From positions 1 to 33,774 of IMG/VR virus record IMGVR_UViG_3300022686_000021: a DNA stretch of 33,774 bases. One strand, given 5' to 3'. The notes under the pieces were generated by a model that ran no database searches, had not been told where the DNA came from, and was given only the letters and a program-made list of their open reading frames with translations. Made by a program: the position numbers and the translations under genes. This DNA comes from a virus. Below, one piece after another: positions 2,882 to 31,197 of the stretch. The stretch's first letter is position 1; each line of letters opens with the position of its first letter.

Positions 2882-3232
2882 ATGCTAACGACCTACGCCA
2901 TAGTGCCCAACGTACGCCCCGACCTCGCCAGGGACGCGCTTGCCGAGTTCCTGGGCGACGAGGGCGTAACCGATGCCGAGGTCACGCTGTTTGCTGCGGT
3001 ATCCGGTGGCAACTGCTACGCCATCACCGCGCCAGACACGACAGACAACCGGGCCACACTGACGCGGCTATTCGGGGAATTCAATCTGCAAGCGCCGCAG
3101 GATACCGCCGGGGTGCGTTCGGTCGGTGTTGCATCGGCGCGCCAGCGGTTCGCAGACCTGCCGCATTTTGATGCGCGCGGCAGTGAGGGCCGATTCGCAA
3201 AAGAAAACCCGCCACCGGACTGGGCGCGGTGA
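2882..3232 (+). CDS. Small conserved-looking protein of unknown function
   Basis: The product is 116 residues long. I do not recognise the family. The sequence starts with a beta-alpha-like segment (TYAIVPNVRPDLARDALAEF) and ends in an acidic/polar tail with FDARGSEGRFAKENPPP, so it looks like a compact alpha/beta domain plus a flexible tail. It sits 9 bases after the tail-tip gene, and its TGA overlaps the GTG of the CAP gene (GTGA), so it is translated with the tail genes. It may be a virion accessory or tail assembly protein. No signal peptide or membrane segment is visible. Confidence 0.55.
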   Translation: MLTTYAIVPNVRPDLARDALAEFLGDEGVTDAEVTLFAAVSGGNCYAITAPDTTDNRATLTRLFGEFNLQAPQDTAGVRSVGVASARQRFADLPHFDARGSEGRFAKENPPPDWAR

Positions 3233-3774
3233 GAACGAAGGCTCTGCTATTCTGTGGCGTGCTGGCACTATTTATTATTCGCGTTTATTTCCCCTGGCTG
3301 CCGGTAGACGGTGGCCGCCCCAATGCCGGACGCGGCACCCTGCCGCCGATAGTCCGCCCCGCGCCCGCAGAGGCAGAGATAATCCGCCACATGCAAGACC
3401 ACCCGGACCAGGGCAGACCGACGCTCATTGTCCACGGGACATTGATGCAGGTAGCGGAGGCCCACGCCGCGGACATGGCGGAACGCGGCTATTTCGACCA
3501 CATCAACCCGGATGGGGTCAACGCCAACGGGCGGGTGATAGACGCGGGATATGCGCTGCCCTACCCGCGCGATGCCAACAACATAGAGAGCATCGCCGGG
3601 GGATATGCCACCGCGCAGGCGGCATGGGATGCGTGGATGGACTCAGACGCGCACCGGGCGCATTTGCTCGCGGAGGATGATTTTTTCGCGGCTCAGATAT
3701 ACGTGGGTGTGGGGTATGTGTACGTGGAGGGCAGCGAGTACGGGCATTATTGGGTGGTCGTGACCGCGCCATAA
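3229..3774 (+). CDS. Membrane-anchored CAP (SCP-like) domain protein
   Basis: The 181-residue product begins with a hydrophobic signal-anchor (residues about 5-20). It is followed by a CAP/SCP1-type domain from about residue 48, with the family signature around HAADMAERGYFDHINPDG (residues about 83-100), a middle NNIESIAGGYATAQAAWDAWMDS block and a C-terminal YGHYWVVV strand. CAP proteins are secreted, cysteine-rich-secretory-like proteins. In bacteria they often occur next to cell-wall genes, and their biochemical activity is mostly unknown. The start is the GTG in a GTGA overlap. Its place at the end of the tail genes suggests a virion or cell-envelope role, for example at entry or lysis. 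No lysozyme or amidase is seen in the window, so it could belong to the lysis set, but that is inference. Confidence 0.78.
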   Translation: MRTKALLFCGVLALFIIRVYFPWLPVDGGRPNAGRGTLPPIVRPAPAEAEIIRHMQDHPDQGRPTLIVHGTLMQVAEAHAADMAERGYFDHINPDGVNANGRVIDAGYALPYPRDANNIESIAGGYATAQAAWDAWMDSDAHRAHLLAEDDFFAAQIYVGVGYVYVEGSEYGHYWVVVTAP

Positions 3775-3778
3775 GCAA

Positions 3779-3804
3779 CAAAAAACCCGCCACGATGGAC
3801 GGGT
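3779..3804 (-). terminator. Intrinsic terminator of the minus-strand FtsK-HNH operon
   Basis: Read on the minus strand, a stem of ACCCG(t)CC with GGCGGGT (one bulged base, 5-nt loop) is followed by six T. It sits 23 bases after the stop of the last gene of the minus operon, between convergent gene sets. It has no T-run on the plus strand. Confidence 0.75.
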
Positions 3805-3826
3805 GTATTGGTGGAACGCCGGTGCA

Positions 3827-4687
3827 TTAGCCTAGCACCTCCACGCCGTTCCCGTTGCGGTGGATGGTGCCTTCCGATTCGAGCGCCGTCAGGTCGTTGT
3901 ACACCGTTCCGCGACTGACACCCAACTCGGTCGCCAACTGTGTAACGCCGGGGTCGCCTCTGTTCAATACGATTTGTACAATGCGCTGACGGCGCTGTTC
4001 AACGTCGGTCTGACGCTGGGCGTTTATTTCGTCCAGTTTATTACTGTCAGAACGTGTTTTGACGCTCAGTTCAGCGTCAGCCTGTACAGGTTTCGTCTGT
4101 TCAGTGTTCACCCGGCTTTGTTCATCGTTGGACAGCGTGCTGTGCATCTCCGCCATAACATGACGCACTTGCAAGCTGACAATTTCCTTGACGCGCCGCT
4201 CCACGTATTCCCGCGCTTCGCTCACGTCAATGTCATCCAGTGCATCCGCCATCGCTTCGCCGATGCGGTCCCGCGTGCGGTCGGTCGCCTCAATGATTTT
4301 CGTCCGCCGCATGGCCGCGCTGTAGTAGCTGACCGATACCGCAAGTAGCGCCTCGCAGAATATCGGAAACCCATAGCCCATGATGATAGCCACCGCGCGC
4401 GGCATGTGCCGATTGTAGTTGAGGAACTGCACCGTACCCGATAGCAGTGCTGCGCCGATGGAACTCCACAGCAACAGCCAGAACACGAAACCGTGTCGCT
4501 GTATGTCCGTCTTTGACAACGCAATCGAAACCACAATCACCACGCCCCCCACGGCGAAACCGAGCGCGTAGGCCACGCCGGGATTGTGGTCTGCGTGGAC
4601 CAGGAAATCGCCAACATTTATCATGCTGGCAATGGCGAACACGGCCATGATGATATGTGCGGACAGTTCGAGTGTAAGTCGTTTCAT
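3827..4687 (-). CDS. Four-helix membrane protein with C-terminal HTH domain
   Basis: The start at 4687 is chosen because the ATG overlaps the upstream stop (ATGA) and has an AGGAAAG ribosome site. The 286-residue product has about four membrane helices in the first 130 residues (for example ALGFAVGGVVIVVSIAL and AIIMGYGFPIFCEALLAVSV). A charged linker with coiled-coil character follows (about 140-225). The C-terminus is a winged-helix/HTH of the type QLATELGVSRGTVYNDLTAL (about 256-275). A membrane sensor or anchor with a DNA-binding head is the simplest reading. The neighbouring FtsK-like ATPase recalls the Tra/Spd pairs of actinobacterial plasmids, where small membrane proteins accompany an FtsK-type translocase. 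That parallel is inference. It is the last gene of the operon. Confidence 0.75.
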   Translation of the reverse strand: MKRLTLELSAHIIMAVFAIASMINVGDFLVHADHNPGVAYALGFAVGGVVIVVSIALSKTDIQRHGFVFWLLLWSSIGAALLSGTVQFLNYNRHMPRAVAIIMGYGFPIFCEALLAVSVSYYSAAMRRTKIIEATDRTRDRIGEAMADALDDIDVSEAREYVERRVKEIVSLQVRHVMAEMHSTLSNDEQSRVNTEQTKPVQADAELSVKTRSDSNKLDEINAQRQTDVEQRRQRIVQIVLNRGDPGVTQLATELGVSRGTVYNDLTALESEGTIHRNGNGVEVLG

Positions 4688-5094
4688 AGTGCTTTCCTCA
4701 GTTCTCTCCACATCCACCGCCCGATGATGCGCAGCGCCGTCATCGTCCATTCGCCCCACGGCCACGGCTGCCGTCTCTGCGGTCCCACGTCGTAGGGATA
4801 GGGGTTGTGTACCGTGTTCGTCAGCCGGTAGCCCACGCTGGCGTAATGCTGTATGCGCCACCGCTCCGCCGTATCTGCCAGAATGTCGGGCACTTCATCA
4901 ATGACGCGCACAGCGGGCGGATGACGCAGGGATTGCAGCCAGTTTTGTTTAGGCGTGTGCCCGTTCCAGCGGCGCAACCAATGTTGCTGCAATCGGCGCT
5001 GCACTACGTAATCGACCGGCTCGCCGGGCTTGCGGTCGGTCTTGCCGACGTAATAAACGCCGTCCGCATGTAGCTCATAGATTATCGTGGTCAT
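4684..5094 (-). CDS. GIY-YIG-like endonuclease domain protein
   Basis: The product is 136 residues. The N-terminus reads IIYELHADGVYYVGKT, a GIY-YIG core pattern (residues about 4-19), followed by an Arg-rich helix (VQRRLQQHWLRRW) and ERWRIQHYASVGYRLTN, which resembles the conserved E-x-x-W-I block of the family with its catalytic Glu. GIY-YIG nucleases make single-strand or double-strand cuts and occur in phages as homing or repair enzymes. The start ATG overlaps the upstream stop and the stop overlaps the next start, so the gene is tightly embedded in the operon. That argues for a conserved functional link with the FtsK-HNH gene rather than free-standing homing. The second Y of the motif is present as YYVG. 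Confidence 0.68.
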   Translation of the reverse strand: MTTIIYELHADGVYYVGKTDRKPGEPVDYVVQRRLQQHWLRRWNGHTPKQNWLQSLRHPPAVRVIDEVPDILADTAERWRIQHYASVGYRLTNTVHNPYPYDVGPQRRQPWPWGEWTMTALRIIGRWMWRELRKAL

Positions 5095-5606
5095 TCTTCC
5101 GGCTCCCATCCGTTATTGTGGCCGTTGAGCGGAATGTCGTAGATTGACCGCGCTCCGTTGCGCCCGTGTACCGAGTCCATGCTGACTGTGGGCGGGCGTT
5201 CCTGGTCGGTTGTCTCGCCCACCTGCCACGCGCGATTCGGTACGTCGTGTATGCTCGTGTCGCCTAGCTTCCGAGCGCCCGCCTCGGCTAGTATACGGGT
5301 TTCGCTCAGGCGGGTGGCGGCAAGTTCTAGGTCTACCTTGCCGCGCGTGTAAATCTTCTCCAGGTTCGTGCGCTCAATCATGGCTGTTTTTTCCAGGTCT
5401 TTTTCAATTGCAAACCGATTGAAAAATAACAGCCCGATACCCAGTAGAAAATCCCAGAATGACGCGCCGGTGTGGGATGCCATTGTGGCCGGTCGGTTGT
5501 CCGGATACGATTCCCGGCTGATACCGACCGGCACGTCGCCATAGCCCATGATATTCTCTACGCCGTCGTTGTCTCGGCTTGGTCCTGTCAGTATTCCACC
5601 TGCCAT
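5091..5606 (-). CDS. Membrane/coiled-coil protein of unknown function
   Basis: The product is 171 residues and I do not recognise a family. Residues 1-45 are polar and Gly/Asn-rich. One membrane helix follows (ASFWDFLLGIGLLFFNRF, about 48-65), then a charged helical segment (about 66-110) that looks like a coiled coil, then a polar tail that includes SIHDVPNR and SIYDIPLN, two similar short motifs. A single-pass protein with a cytoplasmic helical arm is likely. It lies between the FtsK-HNH gene (1-base overlap) and the GIY-YIG gene (ATGA overlap). Its co-translation and membrane anchor suggest that it works with the FtsK-like protein, which is also membrane-anchored. Confidence 0.6.
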   Translation of the reverse strand: MAGGILTGPSRDNDGVENIMGYGDVPVGISRESYPDNRPATMASHTGASFWDFLLGIGLLFFNRFAIEKDLEKTAMIERTNLEKIYTRGKVDLELAATRLSETRILAEAGARKLGDTSIHDVPNRAWQVGETTDQERPPTVSMDSVHGRNGARSIYDIPLNGHNNGWEPEE

Positions 5607-7657
5607 CAGTCACCGCCTTCCGTTTGGTTTATTTTGCCTAATACGTGGTTATAGAGGGCGCCCCCCTCGTCAATGTACCGCTCAATCGTCTTTTTCTGGT
5701 GGCTGCCCTTGTTGCCGAGTGCGATTTCCGCAATGGTGGTTGGAGCCATTCGGAAAAATCGATGCGCTGCATAGATGCGCATTTTGGCCCAGGCATCCGG
5801 CGCATACTGGCCGCCAACTTTCGGGATGATAGGCACCCGCCCATCTAGCTCCATTAGCTGCGACACCAGGAACGCCACATCCCCCATTGCACCTTTGCGT
5901 TGGTTGCAGCGGGCGCACGCCTGCACCAGATTGTCAAGCGCGGTGGCTCCACCCTTTGACCACGGCTGCACGTGGTCGATATGCCACGCTTGCCCGGTGG
6001 GGTCTGTGCCGTTTCCTTCCCCGTTGCAGTAGGCGCAAATATTTTTGTCGCGTGCTATCACCTGCCGCCGCAAATCGTCTGGTATGTGGCGTGTAGAGGC
6101 GTCTACACTTTCGGTGTACCCGTTGCCGTTGGTGTAGGCGGCGGTGTAGTCGTTTCTCTCCTGTGGTGTAGTCTGCGCCGCTGGTGTAGGTCCGCCCCTA
6201 CTATTGTGTTCGTGTCTGTTTACACCTGTCGGTTGATTCGTGGTTTTTGTTCCTGCAATTTCTGTTACATGTTCGGGCTTTGCCCATACGTTAGTGAGTA
6301 GTTTTGGGTTCGTTCCGAACGTGGTGATAATGGATTCTTTGCGCTCGCGCGGGATGGCTAGTGCTTTCGCCTCGTGCGTGTCGAGTCCGAGGGAGCGGGC
6401 GTATTCTCCGAGTCCGCCGCCTGTGTTGGTGACAATGCGACAGTTGGCGCTTGCCATGATGGTTGTACCCAATGGCCCCATGCCGCCATCCATGGTGGGT
6501 CGGTGCGTGATGATTATGAGATAGGTTTGGCCGCCTGCACCGGCCACGGCTAGGTCAGCCACGAGCTTAGCCGCTCGCTTCCATCCGTCTTGGTTGGTGA
6601 GTCGTGACAGATCGTCAACGTATACAATTCGGCTTGCGTGCGTGCCAGGTGCATCTTCGGCTGTACCGTCTACCGTATCAGCCCATACGCGTTCGAGCAT
6701 GTCGGCAATGCCATTGGCGTCGTTGAATACATGTTCTCGGCATTGCGGCGCCCGAACGAATGCCCCCCAGTGCTTCGGGCGTGCCGCTGCCACGTAGAAC
6801 TCCACACGGTCGGGCGGATTCGCGCCCATGATGCTGGCCCCGACACCTAAGCCTAGCCCGGTTTTTCCACTGCGTTGGCCACCAATGATGGTCACAACGC
6901 CCGTGTGTGCAAAATCAATGTAAATAGGATTATCCTCGATATCTATACCCGCGAGCGCGTAGATGTCGGCATCCTCCCGGTCGTGGTGCGTCAATGGTAC
7001 ACCCGGCTTAAATAGACGCTGTACATGTGGGCGTAGAATGTTGGTACTCGGCGGCTCAACCGGCAATCGTACACGCACGTTGATGATACCGTCATCCACT
7101 GTGACCGCGGTCTGTCTTGCCTTGGCTTTCATCGCTTCATTAGGTGCCATGCCCACCAGATGGTCGGAGAGCGCCGGTTTGAATAGCTCGGCTGCTATTT
7201 TCTCATGCACCGGAAGGCACAGACCGCCAGTCAGGTACAATGGAATTTTGAGCGTTGACGAGTACCACACCGGCTTGCCCGGCTTTAGGTCGAAGCGCCC
7301 GTCCGTGATGCGATAGGCTTTCGACACGACTTCCCGCCATGTCTCCGCAATGATGCGCATGGCCTCCGCCTCAAATTGTTGGCGAGGCGATAGCTGGCGC
7401 GACTGTGCCACTGGCAATGGATCGGGCGCGGGTGGCTGCGCTTCGATGCGACGAACTGGCACGTTGGCAGACGAGCGCACAACCGGAGTCGGGGCCGGGG
7501 GCCGGTGGCGTAGGAATACCACCCACGCCAGCCCCCAGGCCACCATAACCAGACCAGACAGCCAGGGCAGCTTGTTATAGTGGTACGTCTCTACCTCTAG
7601 TAGAGTCATACCCAGGATGGCGAATACGCCGCAGGTGAAAATGATTTTTTCTGCCAT
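5606..7657 (-). CDS. FtsK/HerA-like membrane ATPase fused to HNH endonuclease
   Basis: The product is 683 residues. Two membrane helices lie at about 3-20 and 32-49, followed by a Pro-rich linker. A P-loop ATPase domain (about 215-465) has Walker A GGQRSGKT at 259-266 and Walker B RIVYVDDL at 343-350, with a THRP segment after it, as in FtsK/SpoIIIE/TraB-type DNA translocases. After a polar linker (470-525) comes an HNH domain: CAYC at 541-544, HIDH at 559-562, N576 and CARC at 581-584 (two Zn-binding pairs plus the catalytic His). The last 90 residues are helical. FtsK-family motors pump duplex DNA. A fused nuclease would couple translocation to cutting. The phage already has a terminase, so this is an extra DNA motor. 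SD GGGAG is 10 bases before the ATG. Confidence 0.85.
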   Translation of the reverse strand: MAEKIIFTCGVFAILGMTLLEVETYHYNKLPWLSGLVMVAWGLAWVVFLRHRPPAPTPVVRSSANVPVRRIEAQPPAPDPLPVAQSRQLSPRQQFEAEAMRIIAETWREVVSKAYRITDGRFDLKPGKPVWYSSTLKIPLYLTGGLCLPVHEKIAAELFKPALSDHLVGMAPNEAMKAKARQTAVTVDDGIINVRVRLPVEPPSTNILRPHVQRLFKPGVPLTHHDREDADIYALAGIDIEDNPIYIDFAHTGVVTIIGGQRSGKTGLGLGVGASIMGANPPDRVEFYVAAARPKHWGAFVRAPQCREHVFNDANGIADMLERVWADTVDGTAEDAPGTHASRIVYVDDLSRLTNQDGWKRAAKLVADLAVAGAGGQTYLIIITHRPTMDGGMGPLGTTIMASANCRIVTNTGGGLGEYARSLGLDTHEAKALAIPRERKESIITTFGTNPKLLTNVWAKPEHVTEIAGTKTTNQPTGVNRHEHNSRGGPTPAAQTTPQERNDYTAAYTNGNGYTESVDASTRHIPDDLRRQVIARDKNICAYCNGEGNGTDPTGQAWHIDHVQPWSKGGATALDNLVQACARCNQRKGAMGDVAFLVSQLMELDGRVPIIPKVGGQYAPDAWAKMRIYAAHRFFRMAPTTIAEIALGNKGSHQKKTIERYIDEGGALYNHVLGKINQTEGGD

Positions 7658-7671
7658 GACTGTCTGTCTCC

Positions 7672-7884
7672 CTATCCGAATACTCCGTCAATTTCACCGT
7701 TGGCGAGTAGCGTATCGAAATGCGTTTCCGCCATCAGCCGCTTTTCGTCGTCAGTCATTAACTGCTGTTCATCGCCGCCTAGGATTTTCTCGGTCAGTTG
7801 GTCCGCCCGCGCGTCTTTCTGCTGCGGCGAGCGGGTTGGCTCGGTCAATCGTGCTGCTTTGTGTAGTCTGTCTCGTCTGCTCAT
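7672..7884 (-). CDS. Small acidic protein heading the FtsK-HNH operon
   Basis: The start at 7884 (ATG with GGAG nearby) is preferred over a GTG at 7911, which lies inside a terminator stem. The 70-residue product (MSRRDRLHKAARL at the start, EKILGGDEQQLMTDDEKR in the middle) is helical and charged, with no recognised domain. It lies 14 bases before the FtsK-like gene. Its ribosome site lies directly after the U-run of the terminator hairpin at 7901-7930, so its expression probably depends on read-through or on a promoter not recognised here. Confidence 0.55.
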   Translation of the reverse strand: MSRRDRLHKAARLTEPTRSPQQKDARADQLTEKILGGDEQQLMTDDEKRLMAETHFDTLLANGEIDGVFG

Positions 7885-7900
7885 CGTAGAGTCTCCAATC

Positions 7901-7930
7901 AAAAAAGCCACGTCAATGGTGACGTGGCTT
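7901..7930 (-). terminator. Intrinsic terminator just upstream of the FtsK-HNH operon
   Basis: A perfect 11-bp stem (7905-7915 with 7920-7930, 4-base loop) is followed on the minus strand by a run of T. It would end the transcript of the RHH gene at 8050-8361. The next start codon, at 7884, is only 17 bases beyond, so it may act as an attenuator for the following operon. Confidence 0.8.
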
Positions 7931-7944
7931 GCGTGATGCTCAGA

Positions 7945-8033
7945 CTGTCCGCTATGATGGCGGATAGCCGGGCATCGGTGGTACAGTCACCGATGTTTGG
8001 TTAGGGTCGGGGATGTGTTCGTAGCACGTCCCC
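7945..8033. other. Three consecutive stem-loops with 7-nt loops in a noncoding gap
   Basis: Three hairpins follow one another: 7945-7952 with 7960-7967 (8 bp including one G-T), 7973-7980 with 7988-7995 (8 bp perfect) and 8009-8017 with 8025-8033 (9 bp including one G-T). Each has a 7-base loop. In the first and third, the G-T wobble pairs on the plus strand become A-C mismatches on the minus strand, so the fold is better for a plus-strand RNA, although both flanking genes are on the minus strand. No promoter was recognised. Confidence 0.5.
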
Positions 8034-8049
8034 GGCTCGCCTACTCTGG

Positions 8050-8361
8050 TTATCCGTTTGTGGTCGTCATCGTCGTTCTCAGTGCGTCGGTCAAGTTTGC
8101 TTCGATAGCTGCAAGGCGGGCGGCCATTTGCTCGACAGTAACCCGCGTTGCAAGTATATCCTGGTGTACTGCATCTAGATGGCGGCGTGCTTTCGCAGAC
8201 TTGCCGCCTTCCTCGTCTCGCTGCCGCCGCCAGTCTGTCCAGATGCGCCGGGCAATCTCCGAGCGGTTGCCCGCGGCCTCGGTGAAGACGCTGGCTCCTA
8301 CATCGTCCAGCGTCTCCAGGTCAAAATCGTTTACTCGCACGTTCACGCGGGTTTCGCTCAT
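8050..8361 (-). CDS. Ribbon-helix-helix (Arc-like) DNA-binding protein
   Basis: The start at 8361 has a GAGGG ribosome site and lies about 40 bases after a strong promoter; longer starts would cross the -10 box. The 103-residue product begins with ETRVNVRVNDFDLETLDDVG, a beta-strand plus helix A pattern, and continues with NRSEIARRIWTDW, a helix B pattern of RHH proteins. A helical C-terminal part follows (VEQMAARLAAIEANL). RHH dimers bind operator DNA and commonly autorepress. The gene has its own promoter and terminator. It lies upstream of the FtsK-HNH operon, so it may regulate that operon. That is inference. Confidence 0.68.
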   Translation of the reverse strand: MSETRVNVRVNDFDLETLDDVGASVFTEAAGNRSEIARRIWTDWRRQRDEEGGKSAKARRHLDAVHQDILATRVTVEQMAARLAAIEANLTDALRTTMTTTNG

Positions 8362-8404
8362 TATTCCCTCGCTGCTCGGTTCCCGTTTGGTACCCATTTC
8401 GTAC

Positions 8405-8433
8405 ACTATACACCCGTTGCGGAGCGCTGTCAA
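8405..8433 (-). promoter_or_regulatory. Sigma70-type promoter for the RHH gene at 8361
   Basis: On the minus strand the -35 box TTGACA (8428-8433) and the -10 box TATAGT (8405-8410) are 17 bases apart. Predicted transcription start is about 8398, leaving a leader of about 37 bases before the ATG at 8361. Confidence 0.85.
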
Positions 8434-8456
8434 CTTGCAGCGCGATATTTTAAGGC

Positions 8457-8485
8457 AACAAAAAGCCCGGCGCAATGGCCGGGCT
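8457..8485 (-). terminator. Intrinsic terminator of the 9850-8502 operon
   Basis: On the minus strand AGCCCGGC (8485-8478) pairs with GCCGGGCT (8471-8464) around a 6-base loop and is followed by TTTTTG. It lies 17 bases after the stop of the gene at 8502-9431. Confidence 0.88.
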
Positions 8486-8493
8486 GGTGGATG

Positions 8494-8537
8494 GTCACGG
8501 ACTACAATCCGATGCGAGACCGGATGTAGTCCGTGAC
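8494..8537. repeat. 12-bp perfect inverted repeat spanning a stop codon
   Basis: 8494-8505 and 8526-8537 are exact inverted copies, with a further 5-bp inner stem (8507-8511 with 8521-8525). The repeat covers the TAG at 8502-8504 of the minus-strand gene and stands just before its terminator. It could protect the 3' end of the mRNA or act as a protein site. Confidence 0.6.
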
Positions 8538-9431
8538 TGTTTTATTCTCCATTTTCGCCATGCTCTCAATATGGCTTTTTTCGTCTTCCGTAACACGGAT
8601 GCGGAGCGAGCGTTCTCTCGTGTCGGTGTCCTCACCGACCTCACCGATGTAGGAGCTAATCAGTGCTCTCTCATCGTCGGTGAAATCGGCGCTGGGGTCG
8701 TACAGCGCTATCTCGGCAGTGCGCAGGTAGCGTTGCTGCGCGATGGGCGACTTGGCCTGCATCGCCCGGATGGTCTGTGCCGCATCGCCCGCGGCGGTGC
8801 GGCTACGGGCGATAATGAGTTTCAGTGCGTCAAGTATGCCAACGGCTTCCTCGATTCGCAGTCTATCCCGGTACTCGGTCAGGTACTCGATAGCATCAGC
8901 GTGCAGAACAACGTGCTCATATTTCGCCAGATTCTCATACACTTGAGCTAACGTCTGTAGCTGCTCGTCGGTCGTGGTGGAGGTGATTTCCTGCTCGGCC
9001 CCGACATATAGCCACTCGTCCGCCGCCCAGAATTCCCATTCGCTTTCGGGGAGGTCGGCGATTCTATTCATCAAATCGCGCATGGCTACATTGGAATCAA
9101 CGTTCTGCTTGCCCACGTTGTTGCTGCCGTCCCACTCGATTTCGTGTCCGTCGCAGATGCGGGCCAGATATTCCTGCCCATCTGCGGATGATAGGAATTC
9201 GCGCAGGGCGTCGCCATCGGGTACAGGCTCCAGTTGCGCCGTGAGTATCCGGTTATGCCATTCGGCTTCAGGCGTGGAACCCGAGCGGTATTCCTGAGTG
9301 ACCCACACTTTGCGGTAGGCCGGGTCAATAGCTAACTCAGTGTAGCTACATCCTTGTGTATCACGGTGATACGGGTCCAGTTCGGGAATTACGTTAACGG
9401 TTTCGATCTTTACTTGTGTTGTGGTGGTCAT
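8502..9431 (-). CDS. Large protein with C-terminal ribbon-helix-helix domain
   Basis: The product is 309 residues. The first 260 residues are not recognised: a beta-rich N-terminus (VKIETVNVIPELDPY) and then long acidic helices. Residues about 269-309 read ERSLRIRVTEDEKSHIESM followed by TVTDYIRSRIGL, a clear RHH fold pattern, so the protein probably binds DNA as a dimer and carries an extra N-terminal effector domain. The ATG at 9431 has an AGGAG site. It is the second gene after the HNH gene at 9452-9850, from the promoter at 9892-9920. A regulator with a ligand- or partner-binding head is one reading; the antitoxin of a toxin pair is another. Confidence 0.6.
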   Translation of the reverse strand: MTTTTQVKIETVNVIPELDPYHRDTQGCSYTELAIDPAYRKVWVTQEYRSGSTPEAEWHNRILTAQLEPVPDGDALREFLSSADGQEYLARICDGHEIEWDGSNNVGKQNVDSNVAMRDLMNRIADLPESEWEFWAADEWLYVGAEQEITSTTTDEQLQTLAQVYENLAKYEHVVLHADAIEYLTEYRDRLRIEEAVGILDALKLIIARSRTAAGDAAQTIRAMQAKSPIAQQRYLRTAEIALYDPSADFTDDERALISSYIGEVGEDTDTRERSLRIRVTEDEKSHIESMAKMENKTVTDYIRSRIGL

Positions 9432-9451: not shown

Positions 9452-9850
9452 TTAACGATATAACGCCTGTGTAAATCCACCGCGGCGGGCGATGATTTCT
9501 TTTGCGCCCGCCACGTCCAACTGGCGCTGGCTGGTCTCTTCGATGTGGCTGATGATGTCCTCGGCTTTGACGCCATGATTGAGATACGCTGCGACGGCAT
9601 CGGCAAACTCTCGGTAGTCACGATTGCCGCGGCTGCTGTTGCAGCGATGGCAGCATGTAACCAAGTTCGTCTGCCTGTTGCTTCCGCCGTGGCTGTGTGG
9701 CGTGAGGTGGTCGAGCGTGAGCTTAGCTCCGTCTTCGACGCCCTCGCCGCAATAGCAGCAGGCGAGTCCGTCACGTATGTAAATGGCGAGTCGCTTTTCG
9801 CGTCGTATCCAGTTCATCCCCTGGTTTCTCTTTTTTCTATCGACTGCCAT
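9452..9850 (-). CDS. HNH endonuclease
   Basis: The start at 9850 is favoured by an AGGAG site 7 bases upstream. The 132-residue product has CCYC and CGEG-type Zn ligands near residues 31-36, LTLDHLTPHSHGG with the catalytic D-H pair (about 43-55), NLVTCCHRCNSSRG with N and the second Cys pair (about 60-73), and a helical tail. This is the stand-alone HNH type with two CxxC knuckles seen in phages. It may be a homing enzyme, a packaging-associated nicking enzyme or a recombination nuclease. It is first in a two-gene operon with the RHH protein at 8502-9431. The packaging-linked HNH genes of siphoviruses usually lie near terminase, which is not the case here. Confidence 0.85.
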   Translation of the reverse strand: MAVDRKKRNQGMNWIRREKRLAIYIRDGLACCYCGEGVEDGAKLTLDHLTPHSHGGSNRQTNLVTCCHRCNSSRGNRDYREFADAVAAYLNHGVKAEDIISHIEETSQRQLDVAGAKEIIARRGGFTQALYR

Positions 9851-9891
9851 TTTGTATCTCCTGCCTACTAGTGTATCTCTGCTATATGCAC

Positions 9892-9920
9892 ATTGTATCA
9901 TTATTTAGGATACATGTCAA
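9892..9920 (-). promoter_or_regulatory. Sigma70-type promoter of the HNH/RHH operon, with internal operator-like repeat
   Basis: On the minus strand TTGACA (9915-9920) and TACAAT (9892-9897) are 17 bases apart. The inverted repeat GTATC-9-GATAC (about 9895-9913) covers the spacer and -10, a likely repressor site. Upstream, ATCGTATGG occurs twice (9934-9942 and 9945-9953). Confidence 0.85.
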
Positions 9921-24230: not shown

Positions 24231-24992
24231 ATGAATATTTTGATTGTCGCGCCATTCCATGAGGATTTGCCGAATATTCCCGACGAAGCGGCCTCGCTTC
24301 GCAACGCTATTGATGGACGCTTGGTGCAAGGGGATGTGCGAGAGCGAGACATCATCGACGCCATCGACGATGGGCCATTTGACGGCATTTGGTTTGCGAC
24401 ACATGGCGACACGACCGGCGTGTGGCTGAGTGGCGGGGAACGCCTAGACGCGCACGCATTGTCGCAGTATATTTCGTCCTCTGGTGCGCGCTGGATATTC
24501 CTCAACTCGTGCGAGTCTGCATCTCTGGTGGATACAATTCGCGCCACGACCATCGCTGACGTCATTGCCACTAGTTCGCGGATACTGGATGCGACCGCAT
24601 GGCGCACGGCGCGACTGTTCGCGCAGGCGCTAGCAACGACGGGGAATGTGCGTCAGGCATTGGCGAAGGCTGCCCCGGATGGGGCCAACGCATATAGATT
24701 CTGGGCAAATCGGTCTGGGATGGGTGGGACTGGCGTGAGCGATTCACAATTAGATGCACGACTGGCTCGGCTAGAGGCACAAATGGACCGCATGGAGCAG
24801 ACCAGCCAGGTAAGGCAAGAGATGCTCTCGCGGCTGGAGCGCGTTGTAGAGCGGTTGAGCTACGCCATTTATGGCGATGCCGCATCGCAGCAAATCGGGC
24901 TGCTTCGCTGGTTTCGGTGGGGAAGCCTGGGCACCGCATTCAATACGATACTGTTGGCAGTTATCGCGTACCGTATTTTTTTTGGAGGATAA
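24231..24992 (+). CDS. CHAT/caspase-like protease with coiled coil and C-terminal membrane anchor
   Basis: The product is 253 residues. Residues 1-160 follow the CHAT (caspase HetF-associated) fold: a NILIVAP first strand, FDGIWFATHGD with the catalytic His58, a GVWLSGGERLDAHALSQYI hairpin/helix, WIFLNSCES with the catalytic Cys94, and DVIATSSRILDATAWR. A helical segment (about 172-213) with heptad-like Leu/Met spacing is a likely coiled coil. One membrane helix ends the protein (about 233-250). CHAT proteases cleave proteins; bacterial ones serve as death or defence effectors. Here the gene is first in the phage late operon, behind a terminator leader, and followed by a holin-size membrane protein, so a role in host takeover, lysis timing or exclusion of other phages is possible. 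Ribosome site is weak. Confidence 0.82.
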   Translation: MNILIVAPFHEDLPNIPDEAASLRNAIDGRLVQGDVRERDIIDAIDDGPFDGIWFATHGDTTGVWLSGGERLDAHALSQYISSSGARWIFLNSCESASLVDTIRATTIADVIATSSRILDATAWRTARLFAQALATTGNVRQALAKAAPDGANAYRFWANRSGMGGTGVSDSQLDARLARLEAQMDRMEQTSQVRQEMLSRLERVVERLSYAIYGDAASQQIGLLRWFRWGSLGTAFNTILLAVIAYRIFFGG

Positions 24993-27721: not shown

Positions 27722-27918
27722 GCGACGAGCTGACCACCATCCGCCAACAGTTGACATACCTGTCCGTGCTGTTTGATGGACTGCGTTTAATCAAACTGTT
27801 ACTGATACTGTTTCTCATTTGCGCTGTGTGGGCCGCGCTCGCTATTGCCGTGTATTACACGTTGGGCGATGTGGCAATGGTGGTGCGCGTGCATGACTAT
27901 CTGGCGAGTAGACCATGA
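27718..27918 (+). CDS. Small membrane protein, possible holin
   Basis: The start at 27718 is in an ATGA overlap. The 66-residue product has a helical N-terminus (LTTIRQQLTYLSVLFDGL) and one long membrane helix (LLLILFLICAVWAALAIAVY, about 28-47), then a short tail. Holin or a tail-linked membrane protein are both possible. It overlaps the ParB-like gene by 4 bases. Confidence 0.65.
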   Translation: MSDELTTIRQQLTYLSVLFDGLRLIKLLLILFLICAVWAALAIAVYYTLGDVAMVVRVHDYLASRP

Positions 27919-28448
27919 GCGACAGTTACAAGCTTGGGAACGGCACATATCGCAACCGTATCACCGGCTACGACAGCGTAGACCCGGAGCAGTTGCTCGC
28001 CAATCCGCACAACTATCGGATGCACCCGAAACACCAGCAAGACGCGTTGGCCGGTGCGCTGGATGAAATCGGGTGGCTGGATGACGTGATTGTCAACACG
28101 ACCACTGGCAATATCATCGACGGTCATTTGCGCGTGACCCTGGCGCTGCGCAATGGAGAACAAACCGTACCCGTCAAGTACGTAGAGCTGACCGAAGATG
28201 AGGAGCGGCTGGCGCTGGCTACGTTCGATCCGATTACGGCTATGGCGACGCACGACGCCGACCTACTGGACGCGCTACTGCGTGACGTGAACACCGGCGA
28301 CGAACATTTGCAGCAGATGCTCGCAGACATGGCGGGAGATGCCGGGATTGTACCGCCGAATGTGGAGTTCCCAGAGTATGACGAGTCAATAGCTGACGGA
28401 GTGGAAATGTGCACATGTCCCAATTGCGGCCACGAATTTCCAAAATAG
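27915..28448 (+). CDS. ParB/Srx-fold protein, partner of the methyltransferase
   Basis: The product is 177 residues. Residues about 18-100 follow the ParB N-terminal nuclease-like domain: VDPEQLLANPHNYRMHPKHQ, ALDEIGWLDDVIVNTTTG, IIDGHLRVTLALRNG (with the GxxR-like Asp-Gly-His), VPVKYVELTEDEERLALATF. The C-terminus carries a zinc ribbon half (MCTCPNCGHEF). Such phage proteins usually stand beside DNA methyltransferases and act in DNA modification or nicking rather than partition. Here it overlaps the methyltransferase gene by 40 bases. Confidence 0.88.
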   Translation: MSDSYKLGNGTYRNRITGYDSVDPEQLLANPHNYRMHPKHQQDALAGALDEIGWLDDVIVNTTTGNIIDGHLRVTLALRNGEQTVPVKYVELTEDEERLALATFDPITAMATHDADLLDALLRDVNTGDEHLQQMLADMAGDAGIVPPNVEFPEYDESIADGVEMCTCPNCGHEFPK

Positions 28449-29494
28449 ATTACCCGGCGATTCTGGCGCAAGCATGGCAGCAAGCCATCGCACCACGTGA
28501 GCCCGATGCGCCGTCCGTCATTAGCACGTTTGCGGGCGGCGGTGGTTCGTCACTTGGTTACCACATGGCCGGATACCGGGAGCTACTGGCGGTCGAATGG
28601 GACGATAACGCCGTGCAGACACTACGGCTCAATTTCCCGGGCCTCGATATCTATCACGGTGACATTGCTGAACTATCGGTAGATGAGGTACTGCAGCGTA
28701 CAGGGTTGCAGCCGGGCGAGCTTGATGTATTTGATGGTTCGCCACCGTGCCAAGGATTCAGCACCGCAGGCAAGCGGCAGATGGATGACGACCGTAACCA
28801 GCTATTCCGGGAGTACGTGCGGCTGCTGCAAGGGCTACAGCCGAAAGTGTTCGTGATGGAGAATGTTTCCGGCATGGTCAAAGGTAAGATGAAGCTCATA
28901 TTTGCCGAGATACTGCGAGAGCTAAAGGCGAGTGGATACCGAGTATCGGCTCGACTCTTGAATGCCATGTACTTTCATGTACCGCAGTCACGCCAGCGCT
29001 TGATATTTATCGGCGTGCGTGATGATTTAGGGATTGAGCCGAGCCACCCGCAGGCGAAGAGTGGGCCGATAACAGCAATGCAGGCGATAAGTGGTGTAAA
29101 TAATAAAACTTTTGGGCGCTCTCTTGCAAACACGGCCACGTCGATATGGAATCATATAAACCCGGGGCAGAATGGGCAGTGCTATCGGGCGAATTATTAT
29201 TTCAATGCAGTAAAGTTGCACCCCGGCAAACCGTCTCCAACAATTCCAAAGACAGTTAGTGGTACCGGCGCACATATGCACTGGAGTGAGCCTAGAAATA
29301 TGACCATCGAAGAAATAAAACGACTGTCCTCATTCCCAGACGAATATCAACTTGTGGGCAATTTCGAGCGACAATACGAACGAATCGGCAACAGCGTGCC
29401 GCCGCTTATGATGCGGGCGATTGCGCGGCACATACGTGATAGAATCCTCCAACGCGCCGACGCGACCGGCGACACGCCGGAACGGATAGATTGA
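28409..29494 (+). CDS. DNA (cytosine-5) methyltransferase
   Basis: The product is 361 residues with C5-methyltransferase motifs in order: motif I VISTFAGGGGSSLG (about 37-50), motif IV GSPPCQGFS with the catalytic Cys114, motif VI VMENVSG (149-155), motif VIII-like QSRQRLIFIG, and motif X GNSVPP near the C-terminus. The target-recognition domain lies between about 230 and 300. It methylates one cytosine type in a recognition site, presumably to protect phage DNA from restriction. GTG at 28409 lies 7 bases after GGAG; an ATG two codons later is possible. The part coding residues 225-300 is richer in A+T than its surroundings, which may indicate exchange of the recognition domain. Confidence 0.93.
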   Translation: MHMSQLRPRISKIDYPAILAQAWQQAIAPREPDAPSVISTFAGGGGSSLGYHMAGYRELLAVEWDDNAVQTLRLNFPGLDIYHGDIAELSVDEVLQRTGLQPGELDVFDGSPPCQGFSTAGKRQMDDDRNQLFREYVRLLQGLQPKVFVMENVSGMVKGKMKLIFAEILRELKASGYRVSARLLNAMYFHVPQSRQRLIFIGVRDDLGIEPSHPQAKSGPITAMQAISGVNNKTFGRSLANTATSIWNHINPGQNGQCYRANYYFNAVKLHPGKPSPTIPKTVSGTGAHMHWSEPRNMTIEEIKRLSSFPDEYQLVGNFERQYERIGNSVPPLMMRAIARHIRDRILQRADATGDTPERID

Positions 29495-29495
29495 C

Positions 29496-29936
29496 ATGCC
29501 AGCCGGAAGACCGAGCAAACTCACACCCGAATTGACTGAGAATCTGTGTCGTTGGTTGCGCGCCGGTAATTTCGTGCAGACAGCCTGCGACATGGAAGGT
29601 ATCAGTCAGTCCATATTCTATGAATGGATGCGGCGGGGAGAGCGCGGTTGGCAGGTGGACCGCGAGCCGGTCGATTACGTAGAATTTTTGGACACGATAA
29701 AAAAAGCCATCGCTCAAGTCGAAACCGTCACCCTGCACGAACTACGCCAGGGGCCGCAGAACTGGCAGGCGAAGGCGTGGTGGTTGGAGCGTCGGCATCC
29801 TGACAAATGGGGCAACCGGGGCAAGAGCACCACGGTCAACTACAACGTGGATGTGTCGAATCTGTCAGATGAAATGCTGGAACGCATAGCGCGAGGCGAG
29901 GATATTGATACCTCTGAAATTGCGGGCGCAGGCTGA
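29496..29936 (+). CDS. terS: Terminase small subunit-like protein
   Basis: The product is 146 residues, starting with GRPSKLTPELTENLCRWLRA and followed by an HTH (QTACDMEGISQSIFYEWMRR), the DNA-recognising domain of small terminases. The C-terminus has helical WWLERRHPDKWGNRGK and an acidic end (ERIARGEDIDTSEI) that could contact the large subunit. It directly precedes and overlaps the large terminase gene by 32 bases. It would bind the packaging site and regulate the motor. Confidence 0.88.
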   Translation: MPAGRPSKLTPELTENLCRWLRAGNFVQTACDMEGISQSIFYEWMRRGERGWQVDREPVDYVEFLDTIKKAIAQVETVTLHELRQGPQNWQAKAWWLERRHPDKWGNRGKSTTVNYNVDVSNLSDEMLERIARGEDIDTSEIAGAG

Positions 29937-31197
29937 ATTAGAACTACGCCGCCGCCGTATCACTACCGAGCCGGAAACGTGGGCCGACCTGCACGACGGC
30001 CAACGGCAGGTAGTCGCTGAGGCGAAGCGCTACAACGTCGTAGACTGTGGGCGCCGGTGGGGGAAAACGCTCATGGGTGTCAAGCTATGCCGCCCCACAT
30101 TCCGCCAGGGCGAGCCGGTGGGATGGTTTGCACCAACGTACAAAATGATGCTCGAGGTATGGAACGAAATCCGGTGGTTGCTGCCTGACCAACTGGAGCG
30201 CAGCAATAAAAGCGAGATGCGCATGGACTTTGTGGGTGGTGGCTCGATTGACCTGTGGAGCCTGGACAATGTGGACGCCGGGCGTGGTCGTAAATACAAG
30301 AGAGTCATCATCGACGAGGCGGCAATGGTCAAAGACCTAATGGACGCCTGGACCGCTTCAATCCGGCCCACCCTGACCGACCTGCGCGGGGATGCGTGGT
30401 TTCTCTCCACACCCAAGGGCCGCAATGGATTCTGGCAACTGTACCAGCTGGGCGTTGACCCGGAAATGCCGGATTGGGCGTGCTGGACAATGCCGACCGT
30501 CAGTAACCCATACATTGACCCGGACGAAATCGAAGCGGCCCGGCTCATGTTGCCGGAACGAATATTTCAGCAAGAGTACCTTGCAGAGTTCCTCGAGGAT
30601 GGTGGCGGCGTCTTCAGGCGAGTGACGGAAGCGACCACGGCGGAAGAGCAGTATGCGGCGGTTGGTGGGCATCAATACGTGATAGGCGTGGATTGGGGCA
30701 AGCTGAACGATTTCACCGTCATCACCGTGATTGATACGACGACGCGCAGCGTGGTGCAACTGGACCGATTCAACCAGATTGATTATCAGGTGCAACTCGG
30801 TCGCCTACACGCCATGTACAAACGCTTCTCGCCGGTGGGCGTGATCGTGGAATATAACAGCATGGGCGTGCCACTGGTCGAGCAGCTAGTTCGCATGGGT
30901 CTGCCGGTGATAGCGTTCACCACCACCAACGCAAGCAAGGCCGCCATCATTGACGCTTTGTCTCTGGCCTTTGAACGGGGCGAGATACAGATACCCAACG
31001 ACCCGGTGCTCGTTGGCGAGCTGCTGGCCTACGACATGGAACGACTGCCGTCCGGCCTACTGCGATACGGTGCGCCGGAAGGGTTCCACGACGATTGTGT
31101 GATGAGCCTGGCGTTTGCATGGTCTGAGATTTACGACCCGGCGATTGAGGCCGGTGTGATCGTACACGAGGAGCCGGTGACAATTTCACCATACTGA
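29905..31197 (+). CDS. terL: Terminase large subunit
   Basis: The product is 430 residues. ATPase half: Walker A CGRRWGKT (48-55), Walker B KRVIIDEAAM (132-141), coupling motif STPKG (168-172). Nuclease half: GVDWGKLNDF (261-270) with the first acidic residue, EYNSMG, and HDDCVMSLAF near the C-terminus. It packages DNA into the prohead through the portal and cuts it to length. The start is taken as the TTG at 29905, preceded by GCGAGG; it lies within the end of terS, as is common. The protein lacks any long N-terminal extension. It is followed by a 58-residue gene and the portal. Confidence 0.95.
   Translation: MIPLKLRAQAELELRRRRITTEPETWADLHDGQRQVVAEAKRYNVVDCGRRWGKTLMGVKLCRPTFRQGEPVGWFAPTYKMMLEVWNEIRWLLPDQLERSNKSEMRMDFVGGGSIDLWSLDNVDAGRGRKYKRVIIDEAAMVKDLMDAWTASIRPTLTDLRGDAWFLSTPKGRNGFWQLYQLGVDPEMPDWACWTMPTVSNPYIDPDEIEAARLMLPERIFQQEYLAEFLEDGGGVFRRVTEATTAEEQYAAVGGHQYVIGVDWGKLNDFTVITVIDTTTRSVVQLDRFNQIDYQVQLGRLHAMYKRFSPVGVIVEYNSMGVPLVEQLVRMGLPVIAFTTTNASKAAIIDALSLAFERGEIQIPNDPVLVGELLAYDMERLPSGLLRYGAPEGFHDDCVMSLAFAWSEIYDPAIEAGVIVHEEPVTISPY

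Follow-up and report, generated by a model that had tools for sequence, protein, structure and literature searches.

An FtsK-like DNA motor and an HNH nuclease are joined in one polypeptide, with a predicted membrane anchor, in an uncultured tailed phage, where they form the second gene of a compact five-gene operon (table 1). Motor and HNH are also found as adjacent genes in a related phage (G002), and the link between them is thus present in two phages and in two forms. Parts that are fused in one genome and neighbors in another suggest, as far as the sequences go, that the motor and the nuclease are functionally linked. The core of the motor and its membrane partner recurs in further relatives.

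Genome Record and Operon Layout

The window is the whole virus record IMGVR_UViG_3300022686_000021, with a length of 33,774 bases. The genes of the small terminase, the large terminase (29905-31197) and the portal are located at its right end; its left end codes for a tail-type protein and for one with a CAP domain. A replication block on the minus strand contains primase, DnaB, SSB, class II RNR and MazG. The major capsid gene was not identified among the window proteins scanned and, therefore, the genome is probably incomplete.

The motor operon comes after the MazG and class II RNR genes and is the last minus-strand operon ahead of the tail genes. An earlier sequence-only reading had placed it at 3827-7884, with starts and stops overlapping or nearly so, in a phage that possesses its own terminase in addition to this second motor. 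All of this was confirmed: 7884 is the first base of the ATG of the first gene and 3827 the final base of the stop codon of the last, genes 1 and 2 are separated by a 14-nt gap, genes 2 and 3 share a TGATG overlap, and an ATGA overlap is found at each of the gene 3/gene 4 and gene 4/gene 5 junctions. The first gene (70 aa) had been left unnamed in that reading. The codon-position GC periodicity of all five ORFs is that of RNR and DnaB. Terminator-like hairpins are located on both sides of the operon; their number in the sequence exceeds that in shuffled versions only moderately (12 found vs 7.7 expected).

Directly upstream of the operon, the noncoding stretch 7895-8060 (minus strand) forms four successive hairpins, the last of which is the terminator. 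Its fold (-63 kcal/mol, z -5.0) was equaled in stability by none of 200 shuffles. No match was found in Rfam, and the stretch may be a structured leader, an attenuator or a small RNA. No obvious short-repeat array, such as the clt repeats bound in TraB/Spd transfer of dsDNA, exists near the operon.

Elsewhere in the window, a 309-aa protein (8502-9431) has a NikA-like ribbon-helix-helix (RHH) at its C-terminus, and the gene of a ParB-like protein overlaps a C5-cytosine methylase gene (27915-29494). A protein with a CHAT (caspase-like) protease domain (24231-24992) is 78% identical in the related record G014 and has a counterpart in G004 (38% over part of its length). It is a possible effector or host-takeover protease.

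Table 1. Features of the Motor Operon and of the Corresponding G002 Locus
Feature	Coordinates	Strand	Remarks
Upstream gene, RHH-like homologue in G002	8050..8475	-	ORF limits; true start probably within
Terminator-like hairpin directly upstream of operon	7905..7930	-	11-pair stem, T run
Gene 1, 70-aa soluble protein	7672..7884	-	No relatives found
Gene 2, 683 aa	5606..7657	-	Membrane hairpin, FtsK/TraB-type motor, HNH nuclease and C-terminal helical region
Gene 2, two N-terminal TM helices	7511..7648	-	About residues 4-24 and 30-49, hydrophobic
Gene 2, FtsK-type motor core	6368..6979	-	Residues 227-430
Gene 2, HNH nuclease domain	5867..6079	-	Residues 527-597, catalytic and zinc residues intact
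Gene 2, C-terminal region	5609..5866	-	Residues 598-683, possibly HTH-like
Gene 3, 171 aa	5091..5606	-	Weak TM stretch (47-66), then likely coiled coil
Gene 4, 136 aa, GIY-YIG-like nuclease	4684..5094	-	Motif evidence only
Gene 5, 286 aa	3827..4687	-	Four TM helices (about residues 8-120) and C-terminal HTH (230-284)
Terminator-like hairpin downstream of operon	3785..3804	-	
G002 4TM-HTH	5448-6200 (L119 coordinates)		
G002 free HNH	5191 to about 5451 (L119 coordinates)		Pfam 21.2 bits vs cut-off 21.4, E 3.3e-4
G002 FtsK motor	3657-5153 (L119 coordinates)		
G002 two-TM coiled coil	3085-3645 (L119 coordinates)		

The Motor-HNH Protein

In gene 2, Walker A (GGQRSGKT, residues 259-266), Walker B (IVYVDD, residues 344-349) and a TQRP-type FtsK motif (ITHRPTMDGG, residues 383-392) occur in this order. 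Walker B carries an Asp (VDD) where the catalytic Glu is usual, and THRPTMDGG is closer to the TQKPTMD..GG of TraB than to the ATQRPSVD of FtsK. The motor remains sub-threshold in Pfam (0.029) and matches PHROG at 1.7e-5. Its hhalign comparison with an alignment of 13 sequences (six FtsK and seven TraB-type or plasmid FtsK proteins) resulted in a probability of 97.3% (E 2.6e-11; reversed control 0.1%) which, together with the ordered motifs, assigns gene 2 to the FtsK/SpoIIIE/TraB translocase superfamily. The HNH domain matches Pfam PF01844 (8.9e-14, residues 541-590) and its motifs are complete (CxxC...HIDH...NL...CxxCN). The sequence-only reading of an FtsK-like motor fused to an HNH nuclease is thus borne out, as is its membrane anchor, by the two predicted N-terminal helices.

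The C-terminal region includes an HTH-like stretch at residues 640-666, judged by eye. A comparison of this region with the C-terminal HTH of the relatives detected no similarity. AlphaFold without an alignment gave a pLDDT of 37 and, because fold prediction without relatives failed, the domains of gene 2 were assigned from its sequence alone. The fused domain may derive from a free HNH gene at 9452-9901, 1.8 kb upstream, with which it shares 37-40% identity.

Genes 3, 4 and 5

The hydrophobic stretch of gene 3 peaks at only 1.37 in a 19-residue Kyte-Doolittle window and its coiled coil was judged by eye; the single-pass helical protein proposed earlier is therefore retained as a weak TM candidate. 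The gene occupies the slot of the two-TM coiled-coil gene of the relatives according to position and topology. A comparison with the coiled-coil proteins of the relatives gave no sequence similarity.

Gene 4 contains the motif string Y..L..YVGKT, R..H, E..W..I..Y..L.N of GIY-YIG nucleases. A generalized GIY-YIG pattern, composed after the protein had been seen, matched once in 1.1 million residues and in none of 200,000 shuffles. No match was found in Pfam (including the GIY-YIG profile PF01541), PHROG, NCBIfam or PADLOC, and hhalign against SegA, SegF and UvrC did not rise above the reversed control. An AlphaFold model without an alignment shows an order of strands and helices compatible with GIY-YIG at low confidence (pLDDT 43), and a fold search with this model gave no meaningful match. 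The protein is termed GIY-YIG-like because the motif string is present but no profile matched, and the earlier identification of such a nuclease stands to this extent.

Gene 5 was correctly recognized in the sequence-only reading as a four-helix membrane protein with an HTH, which is of the DeoR/HTH_11 type (1.5e-8). Its classification as a DUF2637 protein, and with it a TraB/Spd membership through SpdB/DUF2637-type partners, was tried and rejected: PF10935 was not matched and hhalign to three SpdB-like proteins gave 0.3%.

Motors and Membrane Partners in Related Phages

Related phages were gathered with the terminase as bait (80 viral loci) and with RNR (five), and eight related records were examined at whole or near-whole sequence. 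The window motor as a query missed the motors of the relatives; only a protein profile of FtsK/TraB found them, in the three records G002, G004 and G013 (E 8e-26 to 1e-30). A profile of the phage motors gave no further motor among 50 terminase- or RNR-related records, many of which are fragments. The motors of G004 and G013 are 52% identical, and that of G002 is 27-30% identical to both. Respective matches to the G013 motor are found in 51 GenBank phage records.

In all three relatives, the product of the gene next downstream of the motor has two TM helices at the N-terminus as well as a likely coiled coil; with the weak TM of the window included, a TM/coiled-coil-type gene follows the motor in four out of four phages. 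Between G004 and G013, these proteins share 39.5% identity (E 1.6e-25). Among the ORFs of these genomes with 100 aa or more, about 13% have two N-terminal TM helices; on the assumption of independence, which does not hold for G004 and G013, three out of three would occur by chance with a probability of ~0.002.

In G002, the cassette lies between the tail genes and RNR, that is, at the position matching the window operon. The gene order is RHH-like gene, small genes, 4TM-HTH, HNH, motor and two-TM coiled coil. The shared position is marked by the RHH-like gene, whose counterpart upstream of the window operon is 35% identical over about 60 residues. The membrane partners of the two phages match by position and topology, not by sequence, and the G002 HNH is quite different in sequence from the fused one. 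The "4TM" protein of G002 has only three clear TM segments at the hydropathy cut-off, with an uncertain fourth near the N-terminus. Since the fused parts are separate neighboring genes in G002, the window operon looks like a fused version of them to which a GIY-YIG-like gene has been added. No HNH gene was detected near the motor in G004 and G013. The G004 motor has genes for ParA, a DUF3102 protein and a tyrosine recombinase in its vicinity.

The sequence-only reading proposed a single membrane-linked motor-nuclease unit, to be considered accidental if homologues of the ATPase were commonly without HNH and without these neighbors. On these two points the relatives are divided. A fused HNH is absent from all three motors, but a TM/coiled-coil neighbor is kept in all three, and in one of them (G002) HNH and 4TM-HTH genes adjoin the motor. 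As three related phages possess the motor with membrane partners, one of them with a neighboring HNH gene, the unit looks real rather than accidental. Plasmid-type transfer, exclusion and host-DNA degradation, the three functions suggested in the sequence-only reading, are all candidates on these data.

The fused architecture itself, for which the same reading had suggested a search, has no relative so far: when GenBank phages, plasmids and IMG/VR were searched for near-identity and at the protein level, no homologue of the whole motor-HNH protein was obtained. Single-protein pattern scans of IMG/VR and GTDB genomes also found none; these scans demand exact peptide matches, which makes the negative result weak evidence. 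Two patterns at the DNA level, written for Walker A and THRPTMD, returned unrelated contigs only, or nothing. G048 is a Lentisphaerae genome that was reached via a terminase match; it is not a known host. In 387 genomes of its phylum, a scan gave weak partial matches only, some of them to FtsK-like proteins.

G014 (IMGVR_UViG_3300023214_000125) is a close relative of the window phage (DnaB 80%, primase 81%). No motor-HNH operon was seen in its record, which may also be incomplete, and thus the operon seems, from this comparison, to be an accessory region.

Further observations concern the genomes of the relatives in their own right. Between SSB and RNR, G014 carries a type IV CRISPR-like set (L115:7456-11510) that is not in the window and consists of Csf1-like, Csf2, Cas6, CysH-like PAPS reductase and Csf3 genes; the combination of Cas6 and CysH looks unusual. 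The RNR gene of G014 (L115:11701-14802) has an apparent in-frame intein-like insert (1033 aa vs 794 aa in the window). In G008, a four-TM protein (L109:653-1330) adjoins MazG, and no FtsK motor was detected in the record.

A Proposed Membrane-Tethered Pump and Its Alternatives

Domain content, operon structure, membrane helices and the recurrence of the motor with a membrane partner (in G002 also with HNH) are observed. A working model built on them, which is favored tentatively, is that the operon encodes a membrane-tethered pump by which double-stranded DNA of non-self origin is both pulled and cut. Gene 2 would form a hexamer of the FtsK type, anchored at the inner membrane through the N-terminal hairpin, where the 4TM-HTH protein, as a membrane DNA-binder, and the coiled-coil protein may act as docking partners. 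The GIY-YIG-like protein would make the first breaks, the motor would draw duplex DNA along the membrane and the C-terminal HNH domain would cut it during passage. The likeliest substrate would be DNA other than that of the phage, either superinfecting or otherwise competing. Such an action would resemble the "capture and cut" HerA/FtsK-nuclease systems, but in a phage-borne and membrane-bound form.

This model draws on the presence of a membrane anchor and of intact HNH and FtsK motifs within the same polypeptide, on the translational coupling of a second probable nuclease and the 4TM-HTH protein to gene 2, on the adjacency of HNH, motor, two-TM coiled coil and 4TM-HTH at the matching position of G002, and on the TM/coiled-coil-type gene directly after the motor in all four phages. 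The published theme of FtsK/HerA pumps, which PMC10853773 and PMC12839542 propose to intercept invader DNA and feed nucleases, was also counted in its favor. On the contrary, HNH genes are common in phages and the single co-occurrence in G002 could be chance, Walker B has the unusual Asp, and no PADLOC system matches the gene set as a whole. The model does not account for the discrimination of self from non-self, and the C5-methylase of the phage is also present in relatives without the motor. Furthermore, the ancestral job of the motor was probably not cutting, because G004 and G013 have a motor and a membrane partner with no HNH gene detected.

It is this last pattern, along with the ParA and tyrosine recombinase genes of G004, that makes the handling of the phage's own genome the strongest rival, a possible though doubtful one: the motor would serve partition, dimer resolution or cell-to-cell spread, and the HNH would nick or resolve the moved DNA. 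In DNA handling, FtsK serves chromosomes and TraB/Spd serve Streptomyces plasmids. The case is strengthened by the resemblance of the layout to TraB-SpdA-SpdB of pIJ101 (FtsK motor, small TM protein and 4TM protein from near-overlapping genes, the third being annotated DUF2637 in a plasmid related to pIJ101), by SpdB2 of pSVH1, a membrane protein that oligomerizes, binds DNA and interacts with TraB (PMC4170104), and by the TraB-like motif of the motor. However, neither an integrase nor a ParA gene was found in the probably incomplete genome of the window, no homology to SpdB/DUF2637 could be detected for the 4TM proteins, and both the fused HNH and the GIY-YIG-like nuclease are absent from TraB/Spd modules.

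Two further readings, degradation of the host chromosome and a fortuitous fusion, have a lower probability than either the pump that cuts or own-DNA handling. Degradation of the host chromosome at the membrane, halting the host and feeding the nucleotide pools, with nicking by the GIY-YIG-like protein and shredding by the motor-HNH protein, is considered unlikely. The position after MazG and RNR agrees with it, and so does the nicking by which endonuclease II (DenA) of T4 starts the degradation of host DNA (PMC6071114). MazG and RNR, however, are also present in relatives without the motor. DenA is a GIY-YIG enzyme, but T4 spares its own DNA via hydroxymethylcytosine, while here only the C5-methylase is known and gene 4 is identified from motifs only. 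HNH and GIY-YIG are common homing families in phages, and the HNH domain could be a homing-type cassette fused by chance to an ordinary phage FtsK gene, with no joint function and the GIY-YIG-like gene as another selfish insert. The free HNH gene upstream of the operon and the motors of G004 and G013 with no HNH nearby fit such an origin. It is nevertheless quite improbable, given that an HNH of different sequence also adjoins the motor in G002 and that both active sites and the 86-residue C-terminal extension have been kept in frame.

Significance

In many phages, genes carry an FtsK-like annotation but no assigned role. Because tailed phages package their DNA with the terminase, a second motor recurring with membrane partners represents an unexplained function. 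The split form of G002 and the fused form of the window tie the motor to a nuclease and offer testable pairs. If the pump that cuts acts on foreign DNA, the pump-and-cut defenses of hosts would have a phage-borne counterpart in it; if the motor works on the DNA of the phage itself, tailed phages would possess a device for partition or transfer. It seems rather unlikely, at present, that a group of membrane-docked FtsK pumps exists in uncultured tailed phages and that in some of them an FtsK-HNH protein cutting competing DNA during entry provides an undescribed form of superinfection exclusion.

Comparison with Known Systems

FtsK-like translocases of phages are already known by annotation; in a limited literature search, neither an FtsK-HNH fusion nor the membrane set seen here was found described. 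Mycobacterium phage Thibault gp178, Bacillus phage 268TH007 gp32 and Bacillus phage BM15 gp199 are, like gene 2, phage-borne motors apart from the packaging machinery, and in 268TH007 the FtsK gene is located in a 2.5-kb cassette absent from a near-identical sister phage (PMC9476937). Unlike the window, these examples have no fused HNH, no annotated adjoining nuclease and a different neighborhood.

The pIJ101 module shares the tight operon of FtsK motor, small TM and 4TM proteins, but it includes no nuclease, its partner proteins are not detectably homologous, and the C-terminus of TraB is a winged helix where gene 2 has an HNH. In the HerA/FtsK capture systems (DndH and others), pump, nuclease and HTH proteins are combined as in the window, where pump and nuclease are likewise linked. 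These systems are host defenses with Orc/CDC6-type ATPases, DndF/G and BREX components; their partners are REase-type or exonuclease, and the excerpts of PMC10853773 and PMC12839542 mention no membrane anchor.

In type VII secretion, EccC has two N-terminal TM helices ahead of its FtsK-like ATPase. Gene 2 shares this arrangement and has a sub-threshold match to TIGR03925 (EccC; 5.2e-5), but it differs in its single motor domain, its C-terminal HNH and the lack of ESX genes nearby. The large terminase, finally, is similar to gene 2 in joining a translocating ATPase to a nuclease in one chain, although the ATPase and the nuclease belong to other families.
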